The notes beneath the pieces were generated by a model. It saw only the letters and a list, made by a program, of their open reading frames with translations, was not told the DNA's origin and did not search any database. From contig NZ_SPKJ01000012.1 in assembly GCF_009866965.1 (NCBI RefSeq), positions 1-64,000 on the forward strand: 64,000 bases of DNA. The letters are read 5' to 3'. Numbering within the stretch: the stretch's first letter is position 1; the number at the start of each line of letters is the position of its first letter. Positions 45,751 through 63,365 of the stretch are shown one piece after another. The position numbers and the translations under genes are program-made. The stretch comes from Propylenella binzhouense (lineage in GTDB: Bacteria > Pseudomonadota > Alphaproteobacteria > Rhizobiales > Afifellaceae).

Positions 45751-45870
45751 GCGGACGAGGATCGCCCGCGCCGGTCGGACGAGCTCGACCCCTCCACGCG
45801 GATGACGATCGCCCGCCGCCGGTCAGATGAGCTCGATCGCCTGCACGCGGACGACGATCGCCTGCTGCGC
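45751..45870. repeat. Tandem duplication of the 3' end of the 101-aa gene
   Basis: Units of about 47-49 bases start with GCGGA(C/T)GA(G/C)GATCGCC at 45751, 45798 and 45847. The third, partial unit is the real C-terminal coding sequence of the gene at 45823-46128. The second spans its stop and the first lies beyond it with small deletions. This is a local slippage-type duplication that left decayed copies downstream of the stop. Confidence 0.6.
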
Positions 45871-46128
45871 GAAGCGCGCCTCGAGGTCCCGGCGGTAGCC
45901 CGCCCACCAGGCCCGGTCGAGCGTCTCCGTCATCACCTCGAAGACGGCGATGTCGTCGGCCTCGGTGCCGCCGCCGCCCTTCCAGAGCCCTTCGGCCGGC
46001 GCGCGCGTGAAGGCCGTCAGCCCGCCGAAGCGCTCCGTGAGCTCGCTCCTGACGCGGTCGAACGCCGCGGCGTCGAAGCGCCGGCCGCGCGGGTCGCGGA
46101 CGGGCAGGAGGATCTGGGCGAGATGCAT
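45823..46128 (-). CDS. Conserved small protein of unknown function (101 aa)
   Basis: Not assigned to a named family with certainty. It begins MHLAQILLPVRDPRGRRF and continues with VRSELTERFGGLTAFTRAPAEGLW and DDIAVFEVMTETLDRAWW. This looks like a small single-domain soluble alpha-beta protein. Its start and upstream 55 bases form the left copy of the 110-bp direct repeat that brackets the island (46074-46183). A second copy of the first 18 codons lies at 60609-60663, truncated by a transposase remnant. The 3' end is also duplicated. The gene is intact here. Confidence 0.7.
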   Translation of the reverse strand: MHLAQILLPVRDPRGRRFDAAAFDRVRSELTERFGGLTAFTRAPAEGLWKGGGGTEADDIAVFEVMTETLDRAWWAGYRRDLEARFAQQAIVVRVQAIELI

Positions 46129-46183
46129 CGGGGCGGCTCCAGGGGCGGCAGGACCTCCGAATTCTACCCAGAATCTCCGGACC
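46074..46183. repeat. Island-flanking direct repeat, left copy
   Basis: 110 bases matching 60609-60719 in the same orientation with seven mismatches and a one-base indel. It covers the first 18 codons of the 101-aa gene and the 55 bases upstream. It ends two bases before the stop codon of the monooxygenase gene, the first island gene. Confidence 0.9.
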
Positions 46184-46185
46184 GA

Positions 46186-47853
46186 CTACTCAGCGGCGAG
46201 GGCTTTCACAGGGGCCCTGACGAAGCCGCGATAATCATCATTGGCTATTCCTTCGCAAATCTCGCGATAGGTGCCAACTCCGCCGATGTAGGGCATGAAA
46301 ACCCGCGGCTTGCCGGGGATGTTGGCCCCCAGGTACCACGAGTTCGCCTTCACATGCAGCGTCTTGCTCGCGACGTCATTCACCGTCTGGACCCATTTGT
46401 CCTGTTCTTCCAGGGTCGGCTCGATGCGGTCCTGACCGGCCGCCTCCATCCGGCCGATGATGTCGCAGGTCATTTCGACATGCTGCTCGATCGAGACGGT
46501 CATGTTCGACAGCACCGAGGGGCTGCCCGGCCCGGTGATGAGGAACATGTTGGGGAAGCTGTGGGTCATCAGCCCGAGATAGGTGCGCGGCCCCGCTGCC
46601 CACGCATCGCGGATCGACAGCCCGTCGGTGCCGCGGATGTCGACGTTGAGGATTGAACCCGTCATTGCGTCGAACCCGGTAGCATAGACGATGGCGTCAA
46701 GCTCGTATTCCAAGCCGGACTTCAGCCGCACACCGGTTTCGGTGATGCGGTCGATGGTATCCTCCGACACGTCGACGAGGCTCACATTCGGGCGGTTGTA
46801 GGTCTCGAAATAGTCGGTGTCGACGCAGATACGCTTTGAGCCGATCGGGTAGCCCTTGGGGCAGAGCTTTTCGGCAGTGACCGGATCCTTCACCGTCTCG
46901 CGGATACGCTGACGCACGAATTCGGCGGCCAGGTCGTTGGCCTTCTGGTCGATGCCCAGCTCCTGCCACTGGAAGATGAAGCCGAAACCGCCCGATTGCC
47001 AGCCCTTCCAGAACGCCGCCTCGCGATCCTCGTCGGACATTTCCAGCATCGGCACCGGAATGGTGTCGACGGGAAGGCCGCTGGGCGAATATCGCGCGGC
47101 ATGGCGCAGGGCCGGATAGTTCGCCTTGACCTCTTTCTCACGTTCCTTGGGCAGGGGGCCGTTGTAGGCGGGGATCGAGAATTGCGCCGTGCGCTGGAAC
47201 ACGGTCAGGTGCTTCGCCTCCTGGGCAATGACCGGGATGGCCTGAAGCGCTGACGATCCCGTGCCGATCACAGCCACACGCTTGCCTTCGAAGCTGACGC
47301 GCTCGTGCGGCCACCGGCCGGTGTGGTAGGTGTCGCCCTTGAAGGCCTCCATGCCCGCGAACTTCGGCAGATTGGTCGAGGACAGACAGCCGGTCGCCAT
47401 GATGAAGTAGCGCGTGGTCACCTCGTCGCCAGCCTCGGTCGTCACGGTCCAGGTGCGGGTCTCCTCCGACCAGACGGCCTTCTTGACACGCGCGTCGAAC
47501 TTGATCGAGCGGCGCATGTCGAAGCGGTCGGCCACGTGGTTCAGATAGGCGAGGATTTCGGGTTGCGGCGAGAATTTCTCGCTCCAGCTCCATTCCTGCT
47601 CGAGATCGCGGTCGAAGGAGAAAGAGTAGTGCACGCTGTCGGAATCGCAGCGCGCGCCAGGATAGCGGTTCCAGTACCAGGTGCCACCGACATTCGTGCC
47701 TGCCTCGAAGACCTGGATGGACAGGCCCATCTCGCGACATTTGTGGATGAGGTAGAGGCCCGAGAATCCGGCGCCCACCACCACGACATCGGTCTCGGCG
47801 CGGATGGGCTGGGTTTGGGTCGTCTGTTCAGCTTTCATTGTCCTAGCGGTCAT
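46186..47853 (-). CDS. Baeyer-Villiger monooxygenase (flavin, class B)
   Basis: 555 aa. The FAD Rossmann motif GAGFSG is at residues 27-32. The BVMO fingerprint FxGxxxHxxxWP is present as FKGDTYHTGRWP (171-182), and the NADPH Rossmann motif GTGSSA is at 197-202. Length and sequence fit cyclohexanone/phenylacetone-type enzymes. It inserts an oxygen atom next to a ketone carbonyl with NADPH and O2, giving an ester or lactone in the cytoplasm. AAGGTGG precedes the ATG at 47853. The stop lies three bases beyond the left island repeat. An AraC regulator is divergent, and an esterase gene close by could cleave the ester product. Confidence 0.92.
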   Translation of the reverse strand: MTARTMKAEQTTQTQPIRAETDVVVVGAGFSGLYLIHKCREMGLSIQVFEAGTNVGGTWYWNRYPGARCDSDSVHYSFSFDRDLEQEWSWSEKFSPQPEILAYLNHVADRFDMRRSIKFDARVKKAVWSEETRTWTVTTEAGDEVTTRYFIMATGCLSSTNLPKFAGMEAFKGDTYHTGRWPHERVSFEGKRVAVIGTGSSALQAIPVIAQEAKHLTVFQRTAQFSIPAYNGPLPKEREKEVKANYPALRHAARYSPSGLPVDTIPVPMLEMSDEDREAAFWKGWQSGGFGFIFQWQELGIDQKANDLAAEFVRQRIRETVKDPVTAEKLCPKGYPIGSKRICVDTDYFETYNRPNVSLVDVSEDTIDRITETGVRLKSGLEYELDAIVYATGFDAMTGSILNVDIRGTDGLSIRDAWAAGPRTYLGLMTHSFPNMFLITGPGSPSVLSNMTVSIEQHVEMTCDIIGRMEAAGQDRIEPTLEEQDKWVQTVNDVASKTLHVKANSWYLGANIPGKPRVFMPYIGGVGTYREICEGIANDDYRGFVRAPVKALAAE

Positions 47854-48225
47854 TGTCCACCTTTCGCGCGGCGCGGACGTTCCCGACGCCACGGGAATTG
47901 CGGCGCCAATTCGCGTTTCGGGATATTTGCTGACGCCGGCCATTCGCTGCAGGCGCGGGCGCGCGCTTGTGACAGACGCCGGTCCGCCACATGGTTGCGC
48001 TCCGATCTGCTCGGAGGGCGGCGCTTCCGCCGGATGGCGCTACGGTATCGTATTCTTCATGGTTTCCTCTCTTGGGCGGCTGCCACTATTCTGCGGTAGG
48101 CTGGCCGTTCGGAATCGAATTACGATTCGGCTTGATAAGCGTAGTCATAGAGTGACTGCCTAGAAGAGGAGACGCCGCCAGATACCTGGTAGAAGGTGCC
48201 AATGTGAGAGAGGAGGAGGCCTGGG
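47854..48225. other. 372-base divergent promoter region, BVMO/AraC
   Basis: No gene supported. It contains a perfect inverted repeat GAATCG-AATTA-CGATTC (48112-48128) about 100 bases before the regulator start, a candidate operator. The segment is noticeably less GC-rich near 48030-48160. Confidence 0.4.
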
Positions 48226-49230
48226 TTGAGGATCGACCTGTTGCAGACGACCGTGATGCTGGCGACCAGTATCAGGATCATGGCCGACATTCTCAGGGAA
48301 GAGGGGCATGATGTGGCCGCCGCGGCGGCCGAGGCGGGGTTGCCGTCGTCAGCCCTGACCGATCCTTTGGCGCGTGTGAGCGGGATCGGTGAACTGGCTT
48401 TCCAGCGGATTGCGTGCGCACTGACGCCAGCTCGCCAGGACCTGTGGTTCGCCCTCGGCCAGCGCTATCGCGCCATGGCCTACAGCGCCGGCGGGCTGGC
48501 AATGATGACGGCGCCTAACCTGTCGGAGATGATCGTCAACGCGCATGTCTGGCAGCCGCTGACCTATTCCCTCACCCAGACCCTGCCGATCATGGAGAGC
48601 GGCATCGCCATCGGCGTCGAGCACGACCTGACCGAGGTGCCCGAACCGCTGCGCGAATTCACCATCTTCCGCGACGTCGGTGCGATGATGACCGCGTTCG
48701 ACGAGGTCGTGCCGAATTTCCGCTGCCGGATCGAGATTTGCTTTCCGCGGCCCGCGGTGGCGCTTCCCGAACCGATGGCCGAGGCGGTCTATGATGCGCC
48801 GCGTTCGGCCGTTATCTGGGGGCCGGAGCTTGCGGTGGTGCCGTTCCGCCACGCCGATCCGGTGCTGCACGCCACCTTCATGCAGCAGAGCCTGGCGACG
48901 GTGAGCGACATGCAGCAGACTTCGAGCTTTCTGCGCACCGTGCTCGAGGTGCTGTCGGACACGACGAAGCGACACAGCATCGACGAGATGGCGCGGGACC
49001 TCGGCATGTCCAAGCGCACGTTCCAGCGACGGCTGCGCGACCATTCCATGTCGTTCCGCGACGTCATCGGCACCGTCCGCGCCCGCAGTGCCAAGGATCT
49101 GTTGCGCCAGCCGGGCATGACCATCTCGGAGGTCGCGTGGCGGATGGGCTATGCCGATGCAACCGGCTTTTCCCATGCGTTCCACCGCTGGACAGGCCTG
49201 TCTCCGCGCGCCTTCCGCGAAAGGGGATGA
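48226..49230 (+). CDS. AraC-family transcriptional regulator
   Basis: 334 aa from a TTG at 48226 preceded by GGAGGAGG; no ATG is better placed. The N-terminal 200 residues match the AraC-type arabinose-binding-like domain of the OruR/ArgR-like group. The C-terminal double helix-turn-helix (about 250-334) is clear: IDEMARDLGMSKRTFQRRLRD and ISEVAWRMGYADATGFSHAFHRWTGLSPRAFR. It probably activates the divergent BVMO gene and perhaps the esterase gene in response to a ketone or alcohol, by analogy with other BVMO clusters. Confidence 0.9.
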   Translation: MRIDLLQTTVMLATSIRIMADILREEGHDVAAAAAEAGLPSSALTDPLARVSGIGELAFQRIACALTPARQDLWFALGQRYRAMAYSAGGLAMMTAPNLSEMIVNAHVWQPLTYSLTQTLPIMESGIAIGVEHDLTEVPEPLREFTIFRDVGAMMTAFDEVVPNFRCRIEICFPRPAVALPEPMAEAVYDAPRSAVIWGPELAVVPFRHADPVLHATFMQQSLATVSDMQQTSSFLRTVLEVLSDTTKRHSIDEMARDLGMSKRTFQRRLRDHSMSFRDVIGTVRARSAKDLLRQPGMTISEVAWRMGYADATGFSHAFHRWTGLSPRAFRERG

Positions 49231-49273
49231 CGACGGACGCCGGACCGTGATGGATGGTCCGGCGTCCCGACAA

Positions 49274-50206
49274 TCAGGCGGTTTCGCGGATGAGGCGGCC
49301 CAGATCGTCGATGGCGCGTTCAACGTGCGTCATGCTGGACGGCAGGGCGGCGCGCATGTTCATGATGCCGTGGATCAGCCCGTGGGCTTCGCTGAACAGC
49401 AGGCGGACGCCGCTTTCGGCCAGCCGCGCGGCATAGGCCCGGCCCTCGTCGCGCAGCACGTCCAGCCCTGCGGTCATGATCACCGTGGGGGGCAGGTGGG
49501 CCACGCTTTCGGCCAGAAGCGGCGAGACGCGGGGATCGGTCCAGTCGGCCTCGGTCGGCAGATAGTGGTCGCGGAACCAGTCCATCCCCGCTTCCTCAAG
49601 GAAATACCCGGACGCAAATTCAGAATAGGAAGCGTGCTTCTTCGAGATGTCGGTCACCGGATAGAACAGCAGCTGCGCCCGCACCTTCACCTTGTCCGAT
49701 GCCGAGACCACCGTGGCGAGATTACCCCCGGCGCTGTCGCCGCCAGTCAGCACGCCGCCCGCCTTGCCTCCCAGCTCGGCCGGTGATCCGGCGACCCAGA
49801 CCGCTGCGGCGATGCTGTCGTCGACCGCTGCCGGAAATACATGTTCCGGCGCCATGCGGTAGTCCACCGAAACGACGCGGATGCCCAGCCGGTTGGCGAT
49901 CTGGCTGCACAGGCCGGCGCAGCCGTCGAGGCTGCCAACCACCCAGCCGCCGCCGTGGTAATAGACCAGGACCGGCCCTTCGGGCTCGCCGTGGTCGGGC
50001 ACGAACAGCCGCGCGGGGATCGGCCCGGCGGGACCGGGTATGGTGATGTCTCGCATCTCCTTCAGCGGCTCGACCGGCAGGTCGAGTTCCAGCATCATCG
50101 GCCCCATGACTTCGCGCGCGGTCACGGGATCCATCTCGTGCAGCTTCGGCCCCGGCGCCTGCGCAGCGGCGTCGAGCAATGCTTTGGTCTCCGGCAGAAT
50201 CGTCAT
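49274..50206 (-). CDS. Alpha/beta hydrolase, hormone-sensitive-lipase-type esterase
   Basis: 310 aa. The oxyanion motif HGGGW begins at His84, and the nucleophile elbow is GDSAGG with Ser158. DVLRDEG near residue 249 and the GLIHG histidine near 279 complete the triad. No signal peptide, so it acts in the cytoplasm. It hydrolyses short-chain esters. Next to a BVMO this suggests ketone to ester to alcohol plus acid. GGGAGGGAGGA precedes the ATG at 50206. It is convergent with the AraC gene. Confidence 0.92.
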   Translation of the reverse strand: MTILPETKALLDAAAQAPGPKLHEMDPVTAREVMGPMMLELDLPVEPLKEMRDITIPGPAGPIPARLFVPDHGEPEGPVLVYYHGGGWVVGSLDGCAGLCSQIANRLGIRVVSVDYRMAPEHVFPAAVDDSIAAAVWVAGSPAELGGKAGGVLTGGDSAGGNLATVVSASDKVKVRAQLLFYPVTDISKKHASYSEFASGYFLEEAGMDWFRDHYLPTEADWTDPRVSPLLAESVAHLPPTVIMTAGLDVLRDEGRAYAARLAESGVRLLFSEAHGLIHGIMNMRAALPSSMTHVERAIDDLGRLIRETA

Positions 50207-50405
50207 TCCTCCCTCCCTTGTTCTTCCGTGATCTCATCAAGACCGGAGACTACCGAGCCCGGGCAGTCAGCAGGAACCGGAGCGGGCGCCAATTACATGA
50301 GACACCGCGCCAGTTCGCGGTCCGCGTCGCGAACCCGTCGCCGAGGGGCCATCGACCGCGAGGAGCGCCGCTACGGCGGATCCTTGCCGCGCGCCCGCTT
50401 TCGCT
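50207..50405. other. Gap between the esterase start and the SLC13 remnant
   Basis: About 200 bases with no recognised gene or site. The sequence is GC-rich, unlike the AT-rich patch that follows at 50700, and may include further decayed permease sequence. Confidence 0.3.
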
Positions 50406-50710
50406 TTGCCAGCCTGGCCGTCCTTTGTCGCATTCGTCCTCGAAAGGTATCCGCCTGAGGTCGTAGCAGCCGGGGGTGTGGCCCTGTTCATCGTCCTGCG
50501 TCTGATACGCGCAGACGAGGTCATGGCCTCGTTCTCCAACCCTGCTCCGATCACCATCGCGCCATGTTCGTGGTCTCGGGCGCGTTGGTCCGCACCGGGG
50601 TTTATCGACGGCATCAGCCAGATGCAGCTTTCGAGCGCAGCTGCGCCATCCGCTGGTGCCCATCTTTGCCGGCTTGCTTAGGCGCGACCCTGGCGCTGGT
50701 TGTATAAATG
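50406..50710 (+). pseudogene. Decayed SLC13-type permease fragment
   Basis: Translation gives FVAFVLERYPPEVVAAGGVA and SNPAPITIA, then after a frame change MFVVSGALVRTGV. This runs parallel to residues about 25-85 of the intact permease at 43924-45714 (FVAFASERMPPEVVAIAGMA, SNSAPWTIVAMFIMSAALVRTGV). The rest of the protein is missing and the end runs into stops. It is a remnant of a paralogue, not a copy of the local gene, because the DNA has diverged widely. Confidence 0.75.
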
Positions 50711-50745
50711 CGGTTTATGAGTACCGCACGACTAATTAATTGACA
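50709..50745 (+). promoter_or_regulatory. Inverted repeat and -35-like hexamer before the ABC binding-protein gene
   Basis: TGCGGT-N8-ACCGCA (50709-50728) is a perfect inverted repeat, followed by a TTGACA (50740-50745) in an AT-rich patch about 50 bases before the start at 50796. It is a likely promoter/operator region; no good -10 was seen. Confidence 0.4.
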
Positions 50746-50795
50746 GTGATGAGAACTGCGTGTGAATCTCCGGCCGGTTCCCGGGAGGACTTCGT

Positions 50796-51791
50796 ATGAA
50801 AAACAAACTAATTATCGCTCTATCGTCTGTAATTGTACTTTCAGCCGCAAATATATCATTTGCAGAAACGAAGCATACATCGATTGCTGTTCAGTTCGGG
50901 GTAACCTATCTGCCGCTGGCAGTCATGAAGCATGAGAAGTTGATTGAGAAGCGGGCCAAAGAGGCTGGCCTGGATTTGGTGGTTAACTGGACCCAGGTTG
51001 CTGGCGGAAATGTCTCCAACGATGCGTTGATCGCCGGGAATCTCGACATTTCCGCGACCGGCTTCCCGTCATTCCTGACATTGTGGTCGCGCGGCGCCGG
51101 AAAGATCGATGTGAAAGGCATTTCCGCATACGGCTCGACGCCGCTATTGCTGGTAACGCGCGACCCCGACGTTAACTCGATCGCAGACTTTTCGGACAGC
51201 AACCGCATTGCAGTGCCGGCCGTAAAGAGCTCCACGCAGGCCATGCTGCTGCAGATGGCCGCAGAGACGCAGCTAGGGCAGCTCGACAAGCTCGACAACA
51301 TCACCGTCTCGCGCTCGCACCCGGACGCCCAGGCCGAACTCCTGTCAGGCATCGGGCAGATCGATAGCCATTTCAGCGCCCCGCCGTATCAGTACAATGA
51401 GCTCGAGGCGGACGGCGTCCATCTGGTCATCACCTCAACGGAAATTCTGGACGGGGATGTGTCCAACGGCGTGCTGTTCGCGAAGCAGAAATATATCGAC
51501 GCCAACCCTGCTGTCATCGAGGCGGTCTATCTGGCAGTCGGCGATGCGATGGCGCTGATCAACCAGGACAAGCCGGCCGTGGCCCAGATGTATCTGGATG
51601 AATCGGGTGACAAGATGTCCGTGGACCAGATTCTGCAGACGATCGAGGCGCCCGGCGTCATCTTCGACCAGACGCCCAGGGGGCTCATGAAATTCGCCGA
51701 CTTCATGAAAAGGACGGGCGCGATCGAGAATGCGCCGGCCGACTGGAAGGATGTCTTTTCGGGCGAAGTGATCAATCTGCCGGGCAATTGA
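50796..51791 (+). CDS. ABC transporter substrate-binding protein (SsuA/TauA-like)
   Basis: 331 aa. The signal peptide (KNKLIIALSSVIVLSAANISFA, cleavage near residue 23) is encoded by AT-rich codons (aaa, cta, att, gta) unlike any gene outside the island. The mature part has the nitrate/sulfonate-type pattern: LIAGNLDISATGFPSFLTLWSRGAG, and ELLSGIGQIDSHFSAPPYQYNE. CGGGAGGAC precedes the ATG. No permease or ATPase is adjacent; the island permease and ATPase at 55397-57033 are the likely partners. Confidence 0.88.
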   Translation: MKNKLIIALSSVIVLSAANISFAETKHTSIAVQFGVTYLPLAVMKHEKLIEKRAKEAGLDLVVNWTQVAGGNVSNDALIAGNLDISATGFPSFLTLWSRGAGKIDVKGISAYGSTPLLLVTRDPDVNSIADFSDSNRIAVPAVKSSTQAMLLQMAAETQLGQLDKLDNITVSRSHPDAQAELLSGIGQIDSHFSAPPYQYNELEADGVHLVITSTEILDGDVSNGVLFAKQKYIDANPAVIEAVYLAVGDAMALINQDKPAVAQMYLDESGDKMSVDQILQTIEAPGVIFDQTPRGLMKFADFMKRTGAIENAPADWKDVFSGEVINLPGN

Positions 51792-51896
51792 GGAACCGCG
51801 CCATCGGCTGACGGCCGGACGTTTCTGCGTGGCTGGCGCCCCGGCCGTCATCATTGCTCCAAGCGTCATTGCTCCAAACCAGCCAGGAAGAGATAC

Positions 51897-53345
51897 GTGT
51901 CCAACGTTTCGATCAATCCTGCCACCGGGGAGGAAATCTTCCGCTTTGCCTTTCACTCCGACGTAGATGTCGATGCGGTCATTGATGTCGCCCAGGCGGC
52001 GCAGCTGTCCTGGAAGACGCGCGGAATAGGCGAGCGAACCGCGCTGCTGAGCCGCTCGGGGCAGGTGCTTCGCGCCAACGCCGAGCGCTATGCCCGCCTG
52101 ATAACTCTGGAGATGGGCAAGCCGCGAGCCGAAGCGCTGGCGGAAATTGAGAAATGTGCGTGGAACTGCGATTTCTACGCCCAGCATGCAGCGGATTTCC
52201 TCGCGGACGAGCCGGTGGAAACGGGCGCACAGGCAAGTTCGGTCGTGTTCGACCCGCTTGGCGTCGTGCTTTCCATCATGCCGTGGAATTTCCCCTTCTG
52301 GCAGTTTTTCCGGTTTGCCGCACCCGCGCTGGCAGCCGGCAACGGAATTGTCCTCAAGCACGCCAAGAATGTGCCGCAGAGCGCCCTGGCCTGCGTCGAC
52401 GTGCTTCGGCAGGCCGGGATGCCGGGTGGCCTCGCCGGCGCGATCTTCGTCGAAAACAAGGATGTTGCCCGGATCATCGCCGACAGCCGGATTGCCGGTC
52501 TGACGCTGACCGGATCGACCGGAGCCGGGGCCATCGTCGCCTCGCAGGCGGGACAGGCACTCAAGCGGCAGGTGCTCGAGTTGGGTGGATCGGACCCGTT
52601 CATCGTACTGGCGGACGCCGATGTCGAGCGTGCCGCCAGGGTCGCGGTCAAGGCCCGCTTCCTCAACGCCGGCCAGAGTTGCGTGAACGCCAAGCGCTTC
52701 ATCATCGAGGAGGCGGTCGCGGACAGGTTCACCGAAGCGTTCTGTCGATCCGTCGCTGCGCTGCGGATCGGGGATCCCTGGGCGCCGGAGACGGATGTCG
52801 GTCCCCTGGCCCGGGCGGATTTGCGCGATGCCCTGCACAGCCAGGTGGTGCGGTCGGTTGCTGCCGGCGCCAAGCTGAGGATTGGCGGAGAGGCCGTCGA
52901 GGGCCCGGGATTCTTTTATCGCCCCACCGTCCTGGACGGCGTGACGGAAGCCATGCCCTGCTTCGTGGAAGAGACGTTCGGGCCGCTGGCGGCGATCTCG
53001 CGCGCCAAGGATGCCGATGATGCCGTCCGTCTTGCCAACAGCACCGAATTCGGGCTGGGCGCGTCGCTGTGGACCGCAAGCGCCGAGCGGGCACGCCGCA
53101 TCATGCACCAGCTGGAATCGGGCGCGGTGTTCGTGAACGCCATGGTTGCGTCCGACCCACGCCTGCCATTCGGCGGTATCAAGCGGTCCGGTTATGGCCG
53201 CGAGCTGGGTCGCTATGGCATCCGGGAGTTCACCAACATCAAGTCGGTCTGGATCGAAGCCACCGACTTGCTCCCGGCACCGACCGATCGGAGGAAGAGC
53301 GATGCAAGCTGTCATATTGCGCCCGAACACGATCAAGCCGCATGA
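51897..53345 (+). CDS. NAD(P)-dependent aldehyde dehydrogenase (succinate-semialdehyde type)
   Basis: 482 aa from a GTG at 51897. Catalytic residues are in place: Asn131 (MPWNFPFW), Glu228 (LELGGSDPF) and nucleophile Cys262 (NAGQSCVNAKRF). It oxidises an aldehyde to a carboxylic acid in the cytoplasm. The sequence is closest in style to succinate-semialdehyde/glutarate-semialdehyde dehydrogenases, but the substrate is not fixed. The cupin gene starts inside its last 44 bases. It follows the binding-protein gene by 105 bases, so the three probably form one transcript. Confidence 0.9.
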   Translation: MSNVSINPATGEEIFRFAFHSDVDVDAVIDVAQAAQLSWKTRGIGERTALLSRSGQVLRANAERYARLITLEMGKPRAEALAEIEKCAWNCDFYAQHAADFLADEPVETGAQASSVVFDPLGVVLSIMPWNFPFWQFFRFAAPALAAGNGIVLKHAKNVPQSALACVDVLRQAGMPGGLAGAIFVENKDVARIIADSRIAGLTLTGSTGAGAIVASQAGQALKRQVLELGGSDPFIVLADADVERAARVAVKARFLNAGQSCVNAKRFIIEEAVADRFTEAFCRSVAALRIGDPWAPETDVGPLARADLRDALHSQVVRSVAAGAKLRIGGEAVEGPGFFYRPTVLDGVTEAMPCFVEETFGPLAAISRAKDADDAVRLANSTEFGLGASLWTASAERARRIMHQLESGAVFVNAMVASDPRLPFGGIKRSGYGRELGRYGIREFTNIKSVWIEATDLLPAPTDRRKSDASCHIAPEHDQAA

Positions 53346-53697
53346 CCGCGGCGGTGGCGCCCGCACATATGCCCTGGTGACCAGTGAAATAGGCTCCAGG
53401 TCACTGCTCAACGGCATAACGGAGTTTGCGCCCCGCGCGTCGATCCCGCTGCACAAGCACAATTGCGAGGAAAGCGTCATCGTCCTCGATGGCGAAGCGA
53501 TCGTGGAAATCGACGGCGTGCTGACACCGATGCGGGCCAACGACACCACCTGGGTGCCGGCGGACATCCCCCACCGCTTCATCAACGCCTCTAGCGAACA
53601 TCCCATGCGGATATTCTGGACCTATGCATCGATTCAGGCGACGCGGACCCTGATGGCCACCGGTGAGGTGAGACCAGTGGATTCCGAGCGCTCGTGA
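53302..53697 (+). CDS. Single-domain cupin protein
   Basis: 131 aa. Cupin motif 1 is PLHKHNCEESVIVLDGEA, with His/His/Glu metal ligands, and motif 2 is WVPADIPHRF with the last histidine. GGAGGAAGAG precedes the ATG at 53302, which overlaps the dehydrogenase gene by 44 bases in another frame. Small cupins of this kind act as isomerases, dioxygenases or ligand-binding proteins in sugar and aromatic catabolism; this one cannot be narrowed. Its last 107 bases overlap the convergent pseudogene at 53591. Confidence 0.82.
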   Translation: MQAVILRPNTIKPHDRGGGARTYALVTSEIGSRSLLNGITEFAPRASIPLHKHNCEESVIVLDGEAIVEIDGVLTPMRANDTTWVPADIPHRFINASSEHPMRIFWTYASIQATRTLMATGEVRPVDSERS

Positions 53698-54275
53698 ATG
53701 CGGACATGACCATACGGTCCGCTCGGGTCGAGGCAGGGACCGGGTAGTCGATGTCCGCGGCGGACATGAAGATGGCCAGTACCTGGTCGTAGCCCGCAAT
53801 CGCGCCCACCTTGCTCGCTGCGTCGCGGTCGACCATCTCGACCAGCAGCCTGAGGTTGGCCTGCGAGACGCGATGATCGCGGACGGCCCTGCCGCACAGC
53901 CGGATTGCCGCCGCATGCAGCGGGGTTACGCCCGGGCCGGCCACGCCGCTCAGCGCCGCCGCCAGGGTCTGTCCGTCGAGCCCGATCCGTTCTCCCACGG
54001 CGGCGTGGTAGTCCCATTCATATCCCGATCCAAAGGGCCGCGGCCGTCGCCGGTATCGCTATCTCCCGCAGGTCTGCCGGCAGGTTGTCCAAGAACCTCA
54101 ACTGCGCCCCAATGACCTGGATCGAGCGGGTGATGTCGGGGATGTCCAACATTGCCAGGAAGGGGCGCGGGACCTCCCCGCGCGGACCGGCGGAGATCTC
54201 GTGGTAGACTCGTTTCTGCTCGACGTTCCTCGCTTCGTCGGTGGCAACCCCGATCAGCATTTTCTGCCGGTTCAT
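53591..54275 (-). pseudogene. Carboxymuconolactone decarboxylase-like gene with a frameshift
   Basis: Reading from ATG 54275 (GGAGGAAACG upstream) gives a CMD/AhpD-like protein: RPFLAMLDIPDITRSIQVIG, then LPADLREIAIPATAAALWIG. The frame then hits TGA at 54018. In the next frame the same protein continues without a break as YEWDYHAAVGERIGLDGQTL ... HRVSQANLRLLVEMVDRD and ends at 53591. A single extra base near 54023-54026 explains this. The last 40 residues look non-native, so a second lesion is possible. No CxxC is present. A sequencing error could also give this pattern. Confidence 0.75.
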
Positions 54276-54318
54276 CGTTTCCTCCGATGCGATGCGAATA
54301 AGTCGGCCGAAGCTGCAG

Positions 54319-54333
54319 ACCAGCAATTCTGGT
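54319..54333. promoter_or_regulatory. Candidate LysR-type site
   Basis: ACCAG-CAATT-CTGGT is a perfect inverted repeat in the 179-base gap between the divergent CMD-like pseudogene and the LysR gene, where LysR regulators normally bind. The exact T-N11-A form is not met. Confidence 0.35.
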
Positions 54334-54454
54334 TGTGTCCGATCCAGGGACAATCGACGTTGGGGTGTCGCCACATGGCGCCGTGGCGGAGCATGCCCGC
54401 GCGGCGATGCGAGCCAAAGGCGTGTTCCCCGCAGCAAGCTGTACGAGTGAGCCC

Positions 54455-55342
54455 ATGAATCTGAGACAGATGGAAGTTTTCAACGCCATTATGAAGGTTG
54501 GTTCCGTCACGGAAGCTGCCCGGCTGCTCAATGTCACGCAGCCGGCGATCAGCGCCGTGCTGCGCCATTGCGAGACGACGCTGAAGTTCAAGCTTTTCGA
54601 CCGGGTCCGCGGTCGGCTCGTGCCGACACCCGAGGCCGAGGAAATCTATCCGTACATATCGAGCGTGTTCGAGCGTATCGAGGCCATCGATCACATGACG
54701 CGGGACCTGTCCGGGGCCAAGCGGGGCGTGCTCTCCGTCGCCGCGACCTTTGCCATTGCGAACGGACCTCTGGCCAATGCAGCGGCGCAGCTGGTGCGGC
54801 TGCATCCCGACATCCGCATAACGATCAACTCGCTGCCCACCGCGCAGGTGGTGAGCAGGGTGGCGCGGCGCGAGGCCAATTTCGGCATCGGCTTCGGGCC
54901 CATCCTCGATTCGTCGGTGGAGAGCCAGAGCCTCGCCGCGTCGGAAGTCGCCTGCATCATGCCCAAGGACCACCGGCTTGCGGGTGAAGCCGCCATCTCT
55001 CCCAACATGCTTCGGCACGAGAACATCATCACCTACGCGCCGTATTCGCTGATCGGCGCGCTCGTCGAGACTGCCTTCAAGGCAGAGGGAGTCGATATTC
55101 GAAGGACGGTCCAGATCAATTACTCCAGTACCGCCTACTCTCTGGTCGAACAGGGTGTCGGACTCGCTTTGGTCGAACCCTTCCTGCTGCGATCGCAGCC
55201 CTCGCCGCTGCTGGTCGCGCGGCGTCTGGTGCCGGCCATCCCGATCGAAACGCACCTGATTCAATCGATCGGGAGTTCCCAATCCGCGTCCGGGAACCTG
55301 CTGCTACGTTTGCTCACCGACGAAATCCTGGCGATATTCTGA
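54455..55342 (+). CDS. LysR-family transcriptional regulator
   Basis: 295 aa, standard length. The N-terminal helix-turn-helix is MNLRQMEVFNAIMKVGSVTE-AARLLNVTQPAISAVLRHCE. The C-terminal domain (about 90-290) is a periplasmic-binding-like effector domain. ATG 54455 starts directly with the family N-terminus; the frame is open 40 codons further upstream without homology. It is divergent from the CMD-like pseudogene and probably controls the island transport and degradation genes. Confidence 0.9.
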   Translation: MNLRQMEVFNAIMKVGSVTEAARLLNVTQPAISAVLRHCETTLKFKLFDRVRGRLVPTPEAEEIYPYISSVFERIEAIDHMTRDLSGAKRGVLSVAATFAIANGPLANAAAQLVRLHPDIRITINSLPTAQVVSRVARREANFGIGFGPILDSSVESQSLAASEVACIMPKDHRLAGEAAISPNMLRHENIITYAPYSLIGALVETAFKAEGVDIRRTVQINYSSTAYSLVEQGVGLALVEPFLLRSQPSPLLVARRLVPAIPIETHLIQSIGSSQSASGNLLLRLLTDEILAIF

Positions 55343-55396
55343 CGACACGACGCAGCCTCTGCCGGCATCGCGCAGGAACGTCGCTGCCGCGATTCA

Positions 55397-56263
55397 TCAG
55401 GCCAGCATTCCCCATTTCCTGATCGTCCTGGCTTCAACGACCTTGAAGAAGACGTTCTCGATGATCAGTCCGATGATGATGATGGTCAGCAGGCCGGCAA
55501 AGACCGAGGCGATGTCGAGGCGGTTCTTGCTCTCGAAGATGAACCAGCCCAATCCGCCACTGCTCGAGGACACGCCGAACACCAGCTCTGCGGCAATCAG
55601 GGTTCGCCAGGAAAAGGCCCAGGCGATCTTCAGGCCCGCCAGGATGCTGGGAAAGGCGGCCGGGATCAGAATCTGGCGGAAGAAGGCAAAGCCGCGGAGC
55701 TCATAGTTGCGGCCGACCATTTTCAGCGTGTTCGACACGCTGTTGAAGCCGGAATGGGCATTCAGGGAAACGGCCCAGATGACCGAGTGCACAAGAACGA
55801 ACACCACGCCCCCCACACCCAGCCCGAACCAGATAAGCGCGAGCGGCAGCAGCGCGATCGCCGGCAGCGGGTTGAACATGGCCGTCAGCGTTTCAAGCAG
55901 GTCGGTGCCTATGCGGGTCCTGAACGCGATAGCCGTCAGCAGGGTGGCAAGCACGATGCCGACCCCCAGCCCCATGAACAGCACCTTCAGGGAAACCACG
56001 ACACGCGCAGGAATGACCCCGCTGACGACGCCGTCCACCAGCGCCTCTATCGTGGCGCTGAACGTAGGAAAGAGCAGGTCGTTGTCCAGCCACGTCGCAT
56101 AGATCTGCCAGATGGCGGCAAGCACGATCAGCAGCACCGTCTTGCGCAGCCAGGAAAGATTGTAGGCGGCCGCCAGCAGAGACGGCTTCTGTGCCACGAC
56201 CAGAAGTCGATCCGTCGCCTGGGGTTCGCAGAAGACTTCCGGTCTACCGAATGTCTGGGTCAT
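55397..56263 (-). CDS. ABC transporter permease (SsuC/TauC-like)
   Basis: 288 aa from ATG 56263, which overlaps the ATPase stop (ATGA). About six membrane spans follow a polar N-terminus of some 40 residues. The coupling region is NTLKMVGRNYELRGFAFFRQILIPAAFPSILAGLKIAWAF. It is the last gene of the minus-strand set that starts at 59790. The binding protein is probably the product of 50796-51791 on the other strand. Confidence 0.9.
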   Translation of the reverse strand: MTQTFGRPEVFCEPQATDRLLVVAQKPSLLAAAYNLSWLRKTVLLIVLAAIWQIYATWLDNDLLFPTFSATIEALVDGVVSGVIPARVVVSLKVLFMGLGVGIVLATLLTAIAFRTRIGTDLLETLTAMFNPLPAIALLPLALIWFGLGVGGVVFVLVHSVIWAVSLNAHSGFNSVSNTLKMVGRNYELRGFAFFRQILIPAAFPSILAGLKIAWAFSWRTLIAAELVFGVSSSSGGLGWFIFESKNRLDIASVFAGLLTIIIIGLIIENVFFKVVEARTIRKWGMLA

Positions 56264-57033
56264 GATTGGGCCGTTTCCTCCCCCGGAAACAGAAGCTGGT
56301 GTATCTTGTCCTGCAGGGCCACGGAGGCGACCGGATCCTGCGGCCGGGGCAGGCTGTTGAGTTCCGCTCTGACCTGCCCCGGATGCGGGCTGAGCAGCAG
56401 GATGCGGCTGCCGATCTTGACGGCCTCCGAAATCGAATGCGTCACGAACAGGACGGTGAAGCGACTGGCGTCCCAAAGGGCCAGCAGTTCGTCCTGCATC
56501 CGCTGGCGCGTCAACGCGTCGAGAGCGGCAAACGGCTCGTCCATCAGCAGGATCTCGGGCTCCATCGCCATCCCCCGCACGATCGCCACGCGCTGCTTCT
56601 GCCCTCCCGACAGCATGTGCGGATACGATTCCGCGACGCGCTCCAAGCCGGCCAGGTTTATGTAGTGCATGGCCTTGTCGTCGGCCTCGCGGGCATTGAG
56701 CTTGCGCGTCGCCAGCAACGGGAAGACGATGTTCTGGCGGACCGTTTTCCAAGGCAGGAGCTGGTCGAATTCCTGGAACACCATCATGCGGTCGGCGCCT
56801 GGGTGGTTGATTGCCCGTCCGCCGATCTTTATGGAGCCTTCGGTCGGCTTCAGGTAACCGCCAACCGCCTTCAGCAGGCTAGATTTTCCGCAGCCCGATG
56901 CGCCCAGAATGACGAAGCGATCCGACTGTTCGACGTTGAAGTCGACACGGTAGGTTGCCGTGACTGCGACATTGCCGACTCGGTACTGGAGCGTGACTCC
57001 CTTGACCTCGAGAAGTGGGGCAGCTGCACTCAA
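56260..57033 (-). CDS. ABC transporter ATP-binding protein (SsuB/TauB-like)
   Basis: 257 aa. Walker A is GASGCGKSS at residues 44-52, the signature is LSGGQKQRVAIVRG, and Walker B is ILLMDEPFAALDA. Motifs are intact. It is coupled to the permease gene by a 4-base overlap and separated from the AtuA-like genes by a 98-base gap holding a stem-loop. Confidence 0.9.
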   Translation of the reverse strand: MSAAAPLLEVKGVTLQYRVGNVAVTATYRVDFNVEQSDRFVILGASGCGKSSLLKAVGGYLKPTEGSIKIGGRAINHPGADRMMVFQEFDQLLPWKTVRQNIVFPLLATRKLNAREADDKAMHYINLAGLERVAESYPHMLSGGQKQRVAIVRGMAMEPEILLMDEPFAALDALTRQRMQDELLALWDASRFTVLFVTHSISEAVKIGSRILLLSPHPGQVRAELNSLPRPQDPVASVALQDKIHQLLFPGEETAQS

Positions 57034-57076
57034 GGGTTCGGCCTACTCACTGTTATTGCGTCCGGGTTTCGCGGTA

Positions 57077-57128
57077 GTCCGCAGAACGAGGGGAGCGAGG
57101 CATCGCTTCGCCCGCCCTCCCTTCGGAC
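57077..57128 (-). terminator. Stem-loop between the AtuA-like and ABC genes
   Basis: Interrupted arms GTCCG/CGGAC, GAGGG/CCCTC and AGCGA/TCGCT nest in the gap between the stop at 57132 and the ATPase start at 57033. It may reduce read-through from the enzyme genes into the transporter genes. There is no T-run. Confidence 0.35.
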
Positions 57129-57131
57129 TGC

Positions 57132-57455
57132 CTATGTAGTCTGGCTGGAATCCAGCTCGATGCCCAGCATGACGCTCGATAGGGTCTTGCCGTGGGCATC
57201 CTGCGCCAGCGAGATGGTCACCCCCCCGCCCAATGCGCCTTCGATCACGAAGTTGAAGGCCTTCAGGTTGGGCAGTTCATAGCGGGTGACCGGACCGGAG
57301 GCGATGTGGGCGAATTCCTGCATGACGCGGTCTGCCGTCAGATGCGTGGCCAGGAACTGCCAGTCTTTCTTGTCGTAGCAGACAACGGAGATATTGGAGG
57401 TGTTGCCCTTGTCGCCGGCGCGGCTCGAGGCGATGTCGTATACTCGGATCGGCAT
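57132..57455 (-). CDS. AtuA-related C-terminal-type small protein
   Basis: 107 aa. The sequence (VYDIASSRAGDKGNTSNISV near the start, then NLKAFNFVIEGALGGGVTISL) matches the small ferredoxin-like domain found as the C-terminal part of AtuA-type proteins or as a separate subunit beside them. It follows the large AtuA-like gene with a 2-base gap, so the two are a split version of the AtuA architecture and probably form one enzyme. It has no cofactor motif. Confidence 0.82.
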   Translation of the reverse strand: MPIRVYDIASSRAGDKGNTSNISVVCYDKKDWQFLATHLTADRVMQEFAHIASGPVTRYELPNLKAFNFVIEGALGGGVTISLAQDAHGKTLSSVMLGIELDSSQTT

Positions 57456-57457
57456 GA

Positions 57458-58804
57458 TCAGTTCTCCAACACCACCTGAGTGCGGACGAGGTGCTTTGGA
57501 ATAAGCACCGACTTTACCGCCAGGACGTCGCGGACCTTGGGATCGGAACCCCCGCCACCGCCGCCCGGGCCGTGGATGTGCATGGCACGCGTTTCGAAGC
57601 CGACAGCTTGCGCCGCACGCCGATTCTGCGTCCGTCCGGCCAGGCGAAGGCGTACTTCGTATGGCTCCACCCGCTCGTCAAGCTTGCCATGAAGGCTCGA
57701 CATGCCGATAAAGTCGACGCGGAAATCGTCATAGACGAAATTCTGCTTCCGCAAGCGTTCCTTGACGATCTCGGCCGCCCAACGGGCCCGATCCAGGGCG
57801 CCGATGCCGCCGTAGCTGACCTCTCCCTCGCCTATATAGCCGTCTGTATAGCCGACCGTGACCTTGTAGGAATCCGTCGCCGGCTTGCCGATCGCGCCCC
57901 TCGCCTGCACGCGGTTTTCGCCGGCCTGGATCAGGTCGACGCCGGTAATATCCATCACGCAATCGGGCGTTATGTAGTTCTGCGGATCGTGAACTTCATA
58001 GATGAGCTGCTCGCTGCAGGTCTGGACGCTGACCAGGCCGCCGGTACCCGGCGTCTTGCTGATGAACAGGCTGCCATCTCGGCCGACATCCGCATAGGGG
58101 AAGGCGCTGTCGGCAAGGTTGGGCACATCCTTCTTGCCGGGCCAGCCGAAATAGCCACCGGCGACGGAGACGCTGCATTCGAGCAGGTGCCCGGCCATTG
58201 TGCCTTGCCCCATCAAGGTCTGGTTGTCGCTCGTCCAGCCGAACTCATGCATCAGAGGGGCCAGAAACAGCGACGGATCCGCCACCCGCCCGGTGATCAC
58301 GATCGGCGCCCGCGTGCGCAGCGCTTCGCAGATGACGTCCGCTCCGAGATAGGCGTTGGCGGAAACGATCCTGTCCATCAGCGACTCGACCGGCAGATGG
58401 TCCTCGAGCAGCTCCAGCCCTGGATTGCTGCGGACCAGCTCGGTGACATCGTCGCCCAGCACCACGGCGACCGGAACGCTGCCCAGGCCGAGATTGGTCG
58501 CTTCGTCACGGGCAGCCCGGGCGGCCCCCAGCGGATTTGCCGCCCCCATGTTGGTGACGATCCGGATGTTTTTTTCCATGCAGGTCGGCAGGAGCATCTG
58601 CAGCCGTTCATGCAGCGAGGGCGTATATCCCTTGTCCGGATCTTTCGCCCGCGACAGGTTTTCCCGCGCAATCGTCCTTTCCGCGAGGCATTCCAGCACC
58701 AGGTAGTCGAGGTCCACCCTGCTCACAAGGTCGAGCGCCGGCGTCAGGCGGTCATCGGAGAATCCGGCGCCTACGCCGATGCGCACGGCATCGATAGATT
58801 TCAT
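57458..58804 (-). CDS. AtuA-like (DUF1446) acyclic terpene utilisation family protein
   Basis: 448 aa. It has the DUF1446/AtuA pattern: IGVGAGFSDDRLTPALDLV, DYLVLECLAERTIA, NMGAANPLGAARAA, TGRVADPSLFLAPL, and a glycine-rich HGPGGGGGGSDPKVRD near the C-terminus. AtuA was found in Pseudomonas acyclic-terpene (citronellol/geraniol) degradation, but the wider family occurs in many catabolic clusters and its reaction is not settled. CTAGGAGACG lies upstream of ATG 58804. Neighbours are a LigI-like hydrolase (56 bases upstream) and its small partner. Confidence 0.87.
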   Translation of the reverse strand: MKSIDAVRIGVGAGFSDDRLTPALDLVSRVDLDYLVLECLAERTIARENLSRAKDPDKGYTPSLHERLQMLLPTCMEKNIRIVTNMGAANPLGAARAARDEATNLGLGSVPVAVVLGDDVTELVRSNPGLELLEDHLPVESLMDRIVSANAYLGADVICEALRTRAPIVITGRVADPSLFLAPLMHEFGWTSDNQTLMGQGTMAGHLLECSVSVAGGYFGWPGKKDVPNLADSAFPYADVGRDGSLFISKTPGTGGLVSVQTCSEQLIYEVHDPQNYITPDCVMDITGVDLIQAGENRVQARGAIGKPATDSYKVTVGYTDGYIGEGEVSYGGIGALDRARWAAEIVKERLRKQNFVYDDFRVDFIGMSSLHGKLDERVEPYEVRLRLAGRTQNRRAAQAVGFETRAMHIHGPGGGGGGSDPKVRDVLAVKSVLIPKHLVRTQVVLEN

Positions 58805-58860
58805 TGCATCGTCTCCTAGTGGTTTGCAGGCACGCAGGAAAACCGCCGGTGAGCTGGGCT

Positions 58861-59790
58861 CTATGCGGCCGGGAAGCCGTAGAGGCGGGCGGGGTTCTCG
58901 GCGAGAATGAGAGCCATGGTCCGGGGGCTTGCCACCCATCTGTTGAGCCGGTTCAAGGCGGCGCCATCGTCTTCGCGCCGCAGCGGTTCGATATCGAACG
59001 GTGTCAGTTTCGAGTTCCTGGGCTTTTCCCGGTGGGGCCAGTCCGAGCCCCATACGAGCCGCTCGGGATTGGCATCGACCAGCGCATGCACGATATCGCC
59101 GACATCGGCATAGTCCGGAGCGTTCGAGATCCGGTGCGGCGCCGAAACCTTCACGTAGACCCTACCGTCGCGAACCAGTTCGAGCAGGTCCCGGAAGCCC
59201 GGCTGCTCGCGCCACCGGCTGGCGTCGCAGCGGCCGAAGTGATCGAACACAAATGTGGTGTGCGGGTTCTTCTCGATGGTGGGCCGAAGCTTGGCGATGA
59301 CATCGACATTGGTCCATATCTGGACATGCCAGCCGAACGGGCCGACGCGATCGGCCATGAGCTGGAGCCGCTCGCGCGCGGCGACCGCATCATTGTCGCC
59401 GTGTGCCTCGAGGTTGAGCCGAACGCCGCGCACGCCGGCGGCGTCGAGTCTGACGAGTTCGTCGTTCGTCGTTTCGGCATTGAAGCCCGCAATCCCGCGA
59501 GCCCGGTCTCCCAGACGTCCAAGCATGTCGATGAGGGACCGGTTGTCCGCACCGTAGACGCTGGGCTGCACGATGACGGCGCGCTCCAGCCCAAGTACAT
59601 GCTGCAGCCTGAGCAGATCCTCCAACGAAGCATCCGGCGGAGTGAAGGTACGATCTTCGGAGTAAGGATAGCGATCCTGCGGGCCAAACACATGGCAGTG
59701 GCAATCGCAGGCATACTTGGGCATCACAAAATCGATATCCGAATGAACGACATCGATTATGCTATTGATGTTCGTATGCTGTGTGGCCAC
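58861..59790 (-). CDS. LigI-like amidohydrolase (2-pyrone-4,6-dicarboxylate lactonase type)
   Basis: 309 aa from a GTG at 59790 with GGAAG upstream; an ATG at 59724 (MPKYACDCHCHVFGP) is a good alternative. The metal motif CDCHCHVFGP (His31, His33), a VFDHFGR segment, and WGSDWPH near residue 250 with the catalytic aspartate fit the amidohydrolase group that hydrolyses lactones such as 2-pyrone-4,6-dicarboxylate. It is the first gene of the minus-strand set and would open a lactone or hydrolyse an ester made by an earlier step. The exact substrate is unknown. Confidence 0.87.
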   Translation of the reverse strand: MATQHTNINSIIDVVHSDIDFVMPKYACDCHCHVFGPQDRYPYSEDRTFTPPDASLEDLLRLQHVLGLERAVIVQPSVYGADNRSLIDMLGRLGDRARGIAGFNAETTNDELVRLDAAGVRGVRLNLEAHGDNDAVAARERLQLMADRVGPFGWHVQIWTNVDVIAKLRPTIEKNPHTTFVFDHFGRCDASRWREQPGFRDLLELVRDGRVYVKVSAPHRISNAPDYADVGDIVHALVDANPERLVWGSDWPHREKPRNSKLTPFDIEPLRREDDGAALNRLNRWVASPRTMALILAENPARLYGFPAA

Positions 59791-60141
59791 GTCTGATTAC
59801 TTCCGGTGATTATCATTGTTCACGCCCGTTGGTTTTGTCAAAAAGTGCGGTGAGCAGTCAAATCATTTTCATGGCGCGCGATATAATGTCGGTTTATGGG
59901 ATGCGCGTAACCTCGCCGCTTGCGGTGCGAGCCTGGACGCAGGCGTCACGGCCATGGCCGTGCGCGCTCGGAGAAGCCGGAGTTGGAACGCCTGGCGCTT
60001 ATCGGCTCAGCGTCGGGATATTTCGAGAGTTCGCCAGGCTCTCCGGGTTGGCGAGCGCGGTGTCGTTGGCAGTCGGCCGCCCGTGAATTGCTGCGCGCAC
60101 CGTCTCCGAGATGTTTCCCGGTCGGGTGCGCGGAATGTCAC
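59791..60141. other. Promoter region of the LigI-like operon and unassigned sequence
   Basis: On the minus strand TTGACA (59836-59841) with a weak CAATGA 17 bases on could be the promoter for the gene starting at 59790. The segment around 59800-59910 is AT-rich. From about 59990 a minus-strand frame of some 45 codons ending near 59999 reads like a protein tail, but no family was recognised. No gene is called. Confidence 0.3.
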
Positions 60142-60379
60142 CTCCGGCGCGCCGATTTTCAGCCGCAGGCCATGCGAGGTTCGGCGGCAAGGACGGTGAA
60201 CAGGACGGGTTCAGCGGGTCGGTCGCCGGTGCCCGAGCGGGGAGGGGCCTGGGGCATGCGCGATCTTGCAGCCCCGGTCCTGAGCGGTCGCTTCGGCGAC
60301 GTGCCGCCCTCTCCCTCGTCATCGCCGGCCTCTCGCTCTGCCCGCTCGTCGTGATCGCCGGACGTGATCCGGCGATCCA
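60142..60379. repeat. Dispersed repeat, copy A
   Basis: About 85 percent identical by eye to 62310-62526 in direct orientation, with one gap of about 20 bases. It ends in a perfect palindrome GATCGCCGGA-N5-TCCGGCGATC (60353-60377). The two copies bracket the IS remnant, the tandem repeats and the PIN-domain gene. Confidence 0.8.
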
Positions 60380-60419
60380 TGCCGCGTTCCCCCGCCCCTG
60401 TCGTCGTCGCCGGATCAGG

Positions 60420-60608
60420 CCCACTGCTGTCCGGTTTAATTTCTGGACTGGGTGCACGGTGTTGATTCTACTCGTGTTCAGACGTTGGCGCGTCTTCCGG
60501 ACACGACAGGGGGCAACACCGTGCGGCATCACAATAGCGTTTTCCACGATGTCCTGAAGCAGGTTCCGTGGGGCGTGTTCGAGCGGCTGGTGGAAGAACA
60601 CGCGGCGG
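60420..60608 (+). mobile_element. Truncated IS transposase (IS4-type, DUF4372 N-terminus)
   Basis: From GTG 60521 the reading RHHNSVFHDVLKQVPWGVF-ERLVEEH matches the N-terminal start of IS4-family transposases with a DUF4372-like domain. After 29 codons it stops matching, exactly where the right copy of the 110-bp repeat begins (60609). The preceding 100 bases (from CTGTCCGGTTTAA near 60428) probably include the left end of the element. The rest of the transposase is missing. Confidence 0.7.
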
Positions 60609-60719
60609 CGAAGCGCCCCCCGCGCGCGTCGCGGACCGGCAGGAGGATCTGGACGAGATGCATCGGGGCGGCTCCGGGGGGCGGCAGGACCTCCGAATTC
60701 TACCCAGAATCTGCGGACC
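60609..60719. repeat. Island-flanking direct repeat, right copy
   Basis: Matches 46074-46183 with seven mismatches and one extra G. On the minus strand it contains the first 18 codons of a variant of the 101-aa gene (MHLVQILLPVRDARGGRF from ATG 60663), cut off by the transposase remnant. It marks the right edge of the island. Confidence 0.9.
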
Positions 60720-60720
60720 C

Positions 60721-60854
60721 TGTCTCGGATATCCGCATCCTGGCTCGCTCCTGTCCCGCTTATCCGCATCCTGGCTCGATCCCCTCTCGGATATCCGGAT
60801 GCTGTCTCGATCCTGTCTCGGATATTCTGGGATCCTGTCTGGGCTTTCGCATCC
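60721..60854. repeat. Imperfect tandem repeat, unit about 31 bases
   Basis: Units start at 60721 (partial), 60741, 60772, 60803 and 60836 (partial). They have the pattern TGGCTCGATCCTGTCTCGG followed by ATATCCGCATCC; lengths are 31, 31 and 33 for the full units. The array lies directly right of the right island repeat. There is no conserved spacer/repeat split, so it is not CRISPR. Confidence 0.7.
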
Positions 60855-61167
60855 CGCCTCGGGCTTCGGTCCGCGCTCCGAACCGGCGACCCACCGCCCG
60901 GTTGCCTCCGCCTGATCCGAAGCGCCGCATGCCAGCCGGTTCGAGTCCTGTCGGGTTGCGCCAAAATTCCGCCAGATAGGATGAAACTGGGCCCTCCCTC
61001 GCTCGGTACGTCGCCATTGCGCGGCAAGCGGTCGTTCGCCGAACAACGGAATCGGGTAGGATCGCAGGCGCGCGAAAGCTGCCAGGGAAGGCTCAGTATT
61101 CCCGAAAGCGCACCTCTCTGCGCCACACCATGACATCCTCGTCTAGGCTGAGGTTGGATAGCAAAGC
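60855..61167. other. 313-base region without a gene
   Basis: No gene is recognised. It contains GGTTCGAGTCC (60937-60947), which resembles a tRNA T-arm, but no tRNA body precedes it. The last 60 bases, before the PIN gene, are less GC-rich and probably hold its promoter. Confidence 0.3.
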
Positions 61168-62265: not shown

Positions 62266-62309
62266 TTTTATAAGGATAACAGCGCCGTAGCAGTTCCCCG
62301 TTTCATCCT

Positions 62310-63281: not shown

Positions 63282-63365
63282 GTCGCCTCCGGCGCCCGGG
63301 ACCGCATCATTGTTTCCGTGCGCCCCGGGCGGGTGGCATCCCGGCACCAGGCCGACGATCCGATT

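Follow-up and report, generated by a model that had tools for sequence, protein, structure and literature searches.

A catabolic gene block between diverged direct repeats lies in a longer low-GC tract that reaches tRNA-Ser(GCT) in Propylenella binzhouense

The window analyzed here comprises positions 1-64,000 of contig NZ_SPKJ01000012.1 (hereafter C24, which runs to 72070) in the 4.7-Mb, 229-contig assembly of Propylenella binzhouense. It contains a 14.4-kb block of catabolic genes placed between two copies of a 110-bp direct repeat, and an earlier note on this DNA had described these repeats as the clear edges of an acquired segment. Our analysis shows that the left edge, at 46183/46184, is real, whereas the right repeat is not an island edge: the low guanine-plus-cytosine (GC) content continues past 60719 as far as a tRNA-Ser(GCT) gene. 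The locus is of an ordinary kind, probably a bacterial genomic island. On balance, we favor a layered island at the tRNA, in which the catabolic layer carried its own version of the region around a gene encoding a 101-residue protein and was added through recombination of that version with the resident one.

A low-GC tract from the left repeat to tRNA-Ser(GCT)

The borders of the atypical DNA were located by a two-change-point fit of GC, with the contig read past the window end. The best single low-GC segment of C24 spans approximately 46158-70182 and has a GC content of 0.629, versus 0.698 elsewhere. The left change point lies no more than 25 bp from the end of the repeat, and the right one falls inside the tRNA-Ser(GCT) gene. 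Low GC begins at the left repeat and extends approximately 9.5 kb beyond the right one. GC is 0.697 to the left of the repeat, 0.630 between the repeats, 0.630 for 60720-64000, and 0.640 from 60720 to the contig end. The base use of the segment, described earlier as different from its surroundings, is indeed different from that of the left flank, but not from that of the DNA right of the repeat.

The tetranucleotide distance to the host is 0.175 for 46184-60130 and 0.142 for 60826-70100, and the maxima among 200 host pieces are 0.027 (14 kb) and 0.088 (9 kb). Composition thus supports a foreign-like character for the segment between the repeats, in line with the earlier proposal that it was acquired. 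Right of the tRNA gene the DNA is host-like, with a GC at third codon positions (GC3) of 0.87 and 0.90 in the next two genes and a GC content of 0.705 in contig C212, which was read as the continuation of C24 from an exact 64-bp end overlap between the two.

A discrete 14.4-kb island, edged by the 110-bp repeats and inserted into native DNA by an insertion sequence (IS) or by repeat recombination, is an unlikely account of these data. The direct repeats at both ends, the sharp composition edge at the left, and the IS remnant at the right would suit it, but the DNA beyond the right repeat is no less atypical than that inside, and the segment 46184-60719 fits worse than the longer one by 91.9 log-likelihood units. 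Moreover, an IS is missing from the left end, and the interior of the one at the right appears younger than the repeats (see below).

Another low-GC stretch of the genome is found on contig C1 (1-20000, piece L105), which also carries a PF00589 match at 102300.

The direct repeats and the truncated insertion sequence

The two copies of the direct repeat are 110 bp (left) and 111 bp (right) long, lie in the same orientation, and differ by seven substitutions and one single-base indel, as had been reported. The self-match of the repeat reaches 171 bits; when the window was shuffled 20 times with dinucleotides preserved, the highest non-trivial self-match was 48.2 bits. A search of the whole genome with a 131-base query (E <= 0.001, 40 of 113 first-look candidates scored) placed the repeat at exactly these two sites. 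It consists of 18 codons of the 101-residue gene together with 55 upstream bases. The gene is intact at the left, its start at 46128 lying inside the left copy, whereas the right copy retains 18 codons and is then abutted by the truncated IS; this agrees with the earlier description of a host gene 5′ end that is complete on one side and cut on the other.

The 101-residue protein has no Pfam match, and its relatives, in scattered bacterial genomes, show 46-63% identity (one 86% over 22 residues). At codon 4, the intact left gene encodes Ala and the right copy Val; all 19 homologues read (21 loci) have Val or Ile. Simple decay from the left gene as it now stands therefore does not account for the right copy. 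In addition, four of the five coding differences read from the alignment of the two copies change the amino acid, as expected with at least one copy free of constraint. The 110-bp repeats are best read as the 5′ end of this gene in two diverged versions rather than as attachment sites of a mobile element.

Two tandem repeats lie close by. The 31-bp array that starts where the right repeat ends has no other match in the genome, and a 49-bp tandem repeat (2.3 copies, 45751-45862) spans the end of the 101-residue gene and the gap before it, on the side away from the direct repeat.

The block ends in an IS remnant, as stated earlier. The full element encodes a transposase of 405 residues (DUF4372 and DDE_Tnp_1); the copy on C24 breaks off within the transposase gene, where it meets the right repeat copy at CGCGGCG, a 7-bp microhomology common to the IS and the left repeat copy. 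Relatives of the IS occur at five other places in the genome over at least 189 bases and at a sixth over approximately 100 bases, whereas the rest of C24, including the left end of the block, holds none. Particularly, the IS interior (60421-60608) shows no substitution in 188 bases versus each of five siblings, with one single-base indel, while the repeat copies carry 7 substitutions in 110 bases (Fisher p = 0.0008). As the interior is undiverged and the repeats are diverged, the repeat is probably not a product of the IS. Being inside the IS, the join must postdate insertion of the element, and the repeat copies therefore probably diverged before the join.

A target-site duplication, or a recent duplication made by the IS, was rejected on the same contrast, with a reservation for the outer 14 bases of the IS (see below); a repeat of 110 bp with seven substitutions and one indel is also not a short identical target-site duplication. 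A composite transposon bounded by IS copies resembles the locus in having an IS at one end, but here a single truncated copy is internal to the join, the left end has none, and the repeats are long and diverged. Entry by IS-mediated events, one of the two routes proposed in the earlier note, is accordingly disfavored.

GC-rich repeats resembling repetitive extragenic palindromes (REP-like) occur at 60142-60379, 62310-62526, and 62473-62659. Their kin lie beside IS copies elsewhere in the genome, as if the IS favors them.

The other route, recombination between two copies of a 5′ end, is the favored one. In the layered-island explanation, the catabolic block would be one layer of an acquired tract of approximately 24 kb, running from the 5′ end of the 101-residue gene (46183) to the 3′ end of tRNA-Ser(GCT). 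The catabolic DNA would have brought along its own version of the 101-residue gene region, and recombination with the resident version would have followed. If the incoming DNA was circular, a single crossover would have sufficed; if it was linear, one end would have recombined by homology while the other was joined illegitimately. Both routes would leave one intact and one displaced gene copy, one of them of foreign origin; either may be the resident one. The IS would have entered later on the right side, where a deletion at CGCGGCG would have fused its interior to codon 19 of the right copy.

This arrangement resembles the outcome of a single crossover or of homology-facilitated illegitimate recombination, as that process is defined in PMC3240628, in that homology at one end is accompanied by a microhomology join at the other. 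It differs in that the microhomology join involves an apparently younger IS and may represent a later deletion instead of the entry event, and in that a donor with the 101-residue gene adjoining the monooxygenase was found at none of 21 loci that encode relatives of the gene, within the stretches read.

Two further explanations account for the repeats in other ways. That the repeats arose by local duplication or rearrangement within the genome, or through a chimeric assembly, independently of any transfer event, is quite improbable. The assembly has several contig breaks in or near copies of the IS, and the block contains another truncated gene fragment (of a CitMHS-type transporter); however, the composition of the tract differs from that of host pieces, and the seven differences in 110 bases between the repeat copies show that a single sequence was not read twice.

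Less probable again is a site-specific element whose target is the 5′ end of the 101-residue gene and which supplies a replacement 5′ end, the host's own being displaced to the right and the recombinase lost in the deletion marked by the IS. SXT-type elements at prfC work by such a replacement 5′ end. The geometry fits, with an intact gene beside the element and a diverged 5′ end at its far end; the right copy keeps the Val/Ile of the family at codon 4, and the deletion at the right end could have removed the recombinase. On the other hand, the Pfam scans made of the interval detected no recombinase, C24 has no PF00589 match, and no second example was seen beside the 21 relatives of the gene, where integrases were not specifically sought. 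That the gene 5′ end is the target of an undescribed element of this kind, supplying a promoter and the first 18 codons, and that the window holds a decayed copy whose recombinase was lost, appears marginally more doubtful still.

The tRNA end and the comparison with relatives

The tRNA-Ser(GCT) gene lies at 70127-70219 (-) of C24, approximately 6 kb beyond the window, and its 3′ end faces the tract. The 3′ ends of tRNA genes are classical integration sites of islands. Among eight loci read around the same tRNA in related genomes, an RsmB-like gene is near the tRNA in four; three of these (G004, G005, and G007) also have an IMP dehydrogenase gene there, and the fourth (G003) has the RsmB-like gene only. 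The RsmB-like and IMP dehydrogenase genes of P. binzhouense are on C212; provided that the contig overlap is correct, this places them 5′ of the tRNA. The 5′ side is thus the conserved side, since these genes are kept there.

Integrase-like sequences are found beside this tRNA in two relatives. In G007, an open reading frame (ORF) matching DUF6538 (2.2e-13) starts 79 bp from the tRNA 3′ end; its Phage_integrase match is below threshold (1.9e-4, 21.7 bits versus a cut-off of 27.1). In G004, a 41-residue remnant matching this ORF lies 48 bp from the tRNA (five other relatives' loci were searched). The same query gave no convincing match on C24 (best E 2.1), and C24 has no match to PF00589 (tyrosine integrase), in agreement with the earlier statement that no integrase is present.

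The locus therefore shares several features with tRNA-associated genomic islands, namely atypical DNA on the 3′ side of tRNA-Ser(GCT), a cargo of catabolic and nuclease/PIN genes, and, in two relatives, an integrase-like gene or its remnant next to this tRNA. It differs from them in that C24 has neither a PF00589 integrase match nor a duplicated tRNA end, and in that its far end is a recombination junction at a gene 5′ end. Because these two defining features were not found on C24, the tract is only a probable degenerate island, lacking both an integrase and a recognizable attachment repeat, and its right-hand layer would have entered in connection with the tRNA.

A GC dip was also seen on contig C200 (piece L114), around and after the 3′ end of tRNA-Ser(TGA) at 11218-11307 (+), where 2-kb bins at 10-14 kb have values of 0.62 and 0.57. 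It is possibly a second tRNA-Ser island.

The comparison with relatives was made at the level of the family and beyond, as none of the 60 relatives returned belongs to the same genus. The transporter left of the repeat is present in genus g5, with no 101-residue gene nearby (18-kb stretches in two genomes), while the 101-residue gene of relative G001 (assigned to Faunimonas pinastri from the sequence identity of 1 kb) has other neighbors. In the 10 other family genomes, nothing matches the enoyl-CoA hydratase encoded right of the tRNA at E <= 1e-40, and the left-flank genes are present at none of the eight loci around tRNA-Ser(GCT). Around the relatives of the 101-residue gene, the 21 loci hold no proteins of the window beyond generic ATP-binding cassette (ABC) ATPases and one AraC hit, and none carries the monooxygenase gene of the block within the stretches read.

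The relatives of the cargo proteins are distant in the genomes and plasmids searched, and no donor is named. For the AtuA-family protein, the best identity is 50% across 397 genomes from the order, 51% across 398 from the phylum, and 52.8% on plasmids; in 14 AtuA loci from the order, the AtuA ferredoxin-like partner is the only gene clearly linked in all. The best identity of the monooxygenase is 57% in 297 genomes, and it stays below 60% in 901 of 902 plasmid records; two other monooxygenases of the same genome, on contig C197, are 52 and 56% identical to it. The amidohydrolase reaches 48% in 297 genomes, and the PIN_12 protein 48.8% on Agrobacterium vitis plasmids.

Several results weigh against a layered island at the tRNA. 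Three of 23 readable pieces of the genome outside C24 are also low in GC (L105, 0.619; L119, 0.659; L121, 0.666), the other 20 lying at 0.680-0.719 (pieces L110, L111, L112, and L129, all N, were dropped), and low GC alone is therefore no proof of acquisition. The composition distance between the catabolic layer and the right-hand layer (0.13) is about equal to that between two parts of the right-hand layer (0.135), so that composition is no proof of two sources. When the outer 14 IS bases, where the siblings differ, are included, the contrast with the repeats has p values of 0.01, 0.01, 0.04, and 0.12 for the four copies covering them; a recent transposition burst could hide the age of the IS, and the divergence of two copies over 110 bp is a small sample. 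All nine PF00589 matches of the genome lie outside C24, serine recombinases not having been searched genome-wide, and C24 has no second copy of the tRNA 3′ end (20, 28, and 35 bases, with up to 3, 4, and 5 edits). Finally, no empty site was seen, the family genomes examined having no common gene order at the left flank or across the tRNA.

Gene content of the tract

The annotated features of the window are collected in Table 1.

Table 1 Features of the catabolic block, its repeats, and the adjoining low-GC DNA in the window
Feature	Coordinates	Strand	Remarks
101-residue host gene	45823-46128	-	intact; 5′ end in left repeat; GC3 0.97
Left repeat copy	46074-46183	+	18 codons and 55 upstream bases; composition edge of tract at right end
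Flavin monooxygenase, Baeyer-Villiger type	46186-47943	-	contains FxGxxxHxxxW; stop codon 3 bp from repeat
AraC-family regulator	48226-49230	+	
Alpha/beta hydrolase (esterase), hormone-sensitive-lipase group	49274-50206	-	HGGG, GDSAGG
Truncated CitMHS-type transporter fragment, pseudogene	50406-50681	+	91-residue ORF
Substrate-binding protein, NMT1/SsuA-type ABC transporter	50796-51791	+	
Aldehyde dehydrogenase	51897-53345	+	nearest curated models succinate-semialdehyde dehydrogenase, below cut-off
Cupin-domain protein	53350-53697	+	
LysR-family regulator	54335-55342	+	
ABC transporter permease	55397-56245	-	domain called on longer ORF 55397-56752
ABC transporter ATPase	56260-57033	-	
AtuA ferredoxin-like domain protein	57132-57455	-	
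AtuA-family protein	57458-59053	-	family match covers residues 90-528 of ORF
Amidohydrolase (PF04909)	58861-59790	-	nearest curated model 4-sulfomuconolactone hydrolase, well below cut-off
REP-like repeat block	60142-60379	.	81% identity with 62310-62526; comparable short repeats adjoin IS copies at other genomic sites
Truncated IS 5′ end	60407-60608	+	multicopy IS, DUF4372 and DDE_Tnp_1 transposase; joins right repeat at CGCGGCG
Right repeat copy	60609-60719	+	18 codons and upstream bases of 101-residue gene, cut by IS
31-bp tandem array, 3.5 copies	60719-60825	+	starts where right repeat ends
PIN_12 domain gene	61168-62265	+	GC3 0.66; low-GC DNA right of repeat
Cupin (62838-63281) and TetR regulator (63318-63977)	62838-63977	+	low-GC tract right of repeat

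Family membership suggests that the catabolic block serves to take up and oxidize an organic substrate. A ketone could be processed via the monooxygenase, whose FxGxxxHxxxW sequence we take to be the Baeyer-Villiger-type motif, together with the esterase, and an acid via the ABC transporter, the AtuA pair, and the dehydrogenase. No substrate is named, since the curated models match below their cut-offs. Two pseudogenes had been proposed in the block, and one of them stands: the CitMHS-type fragment matches residues 26-102 of a 601-residue CitMHS transporter with 40% identity. The second found no support, as the only other candidate tested, the ORF at 53591-53998 (-), has no match in Pfam (0.001), NCBIfam (0.01), or plasmids (0.001).

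Beyond the window, the tract carries a PIN gene, a PG_binding_1 protein gene, and an Mrr nuclease gene, up to tRNA-Ser(GCT). The Mrr-type nuclease gene lies near the tRNA (C24 68962-69876; L036 5406-6377), and with the two PIN genes elsewhere in the tract it possibly represents defense cargo.

The direct repeats and the IS remnant resembled the ends of an island, but the foreign tract runs on to the tRNA gene. For P. binzhouense, it marks a variable locus with catabolic and nuclease/PIN genes, located at a tRNA next to which relatives carry an integrase-like gene or its remnant.

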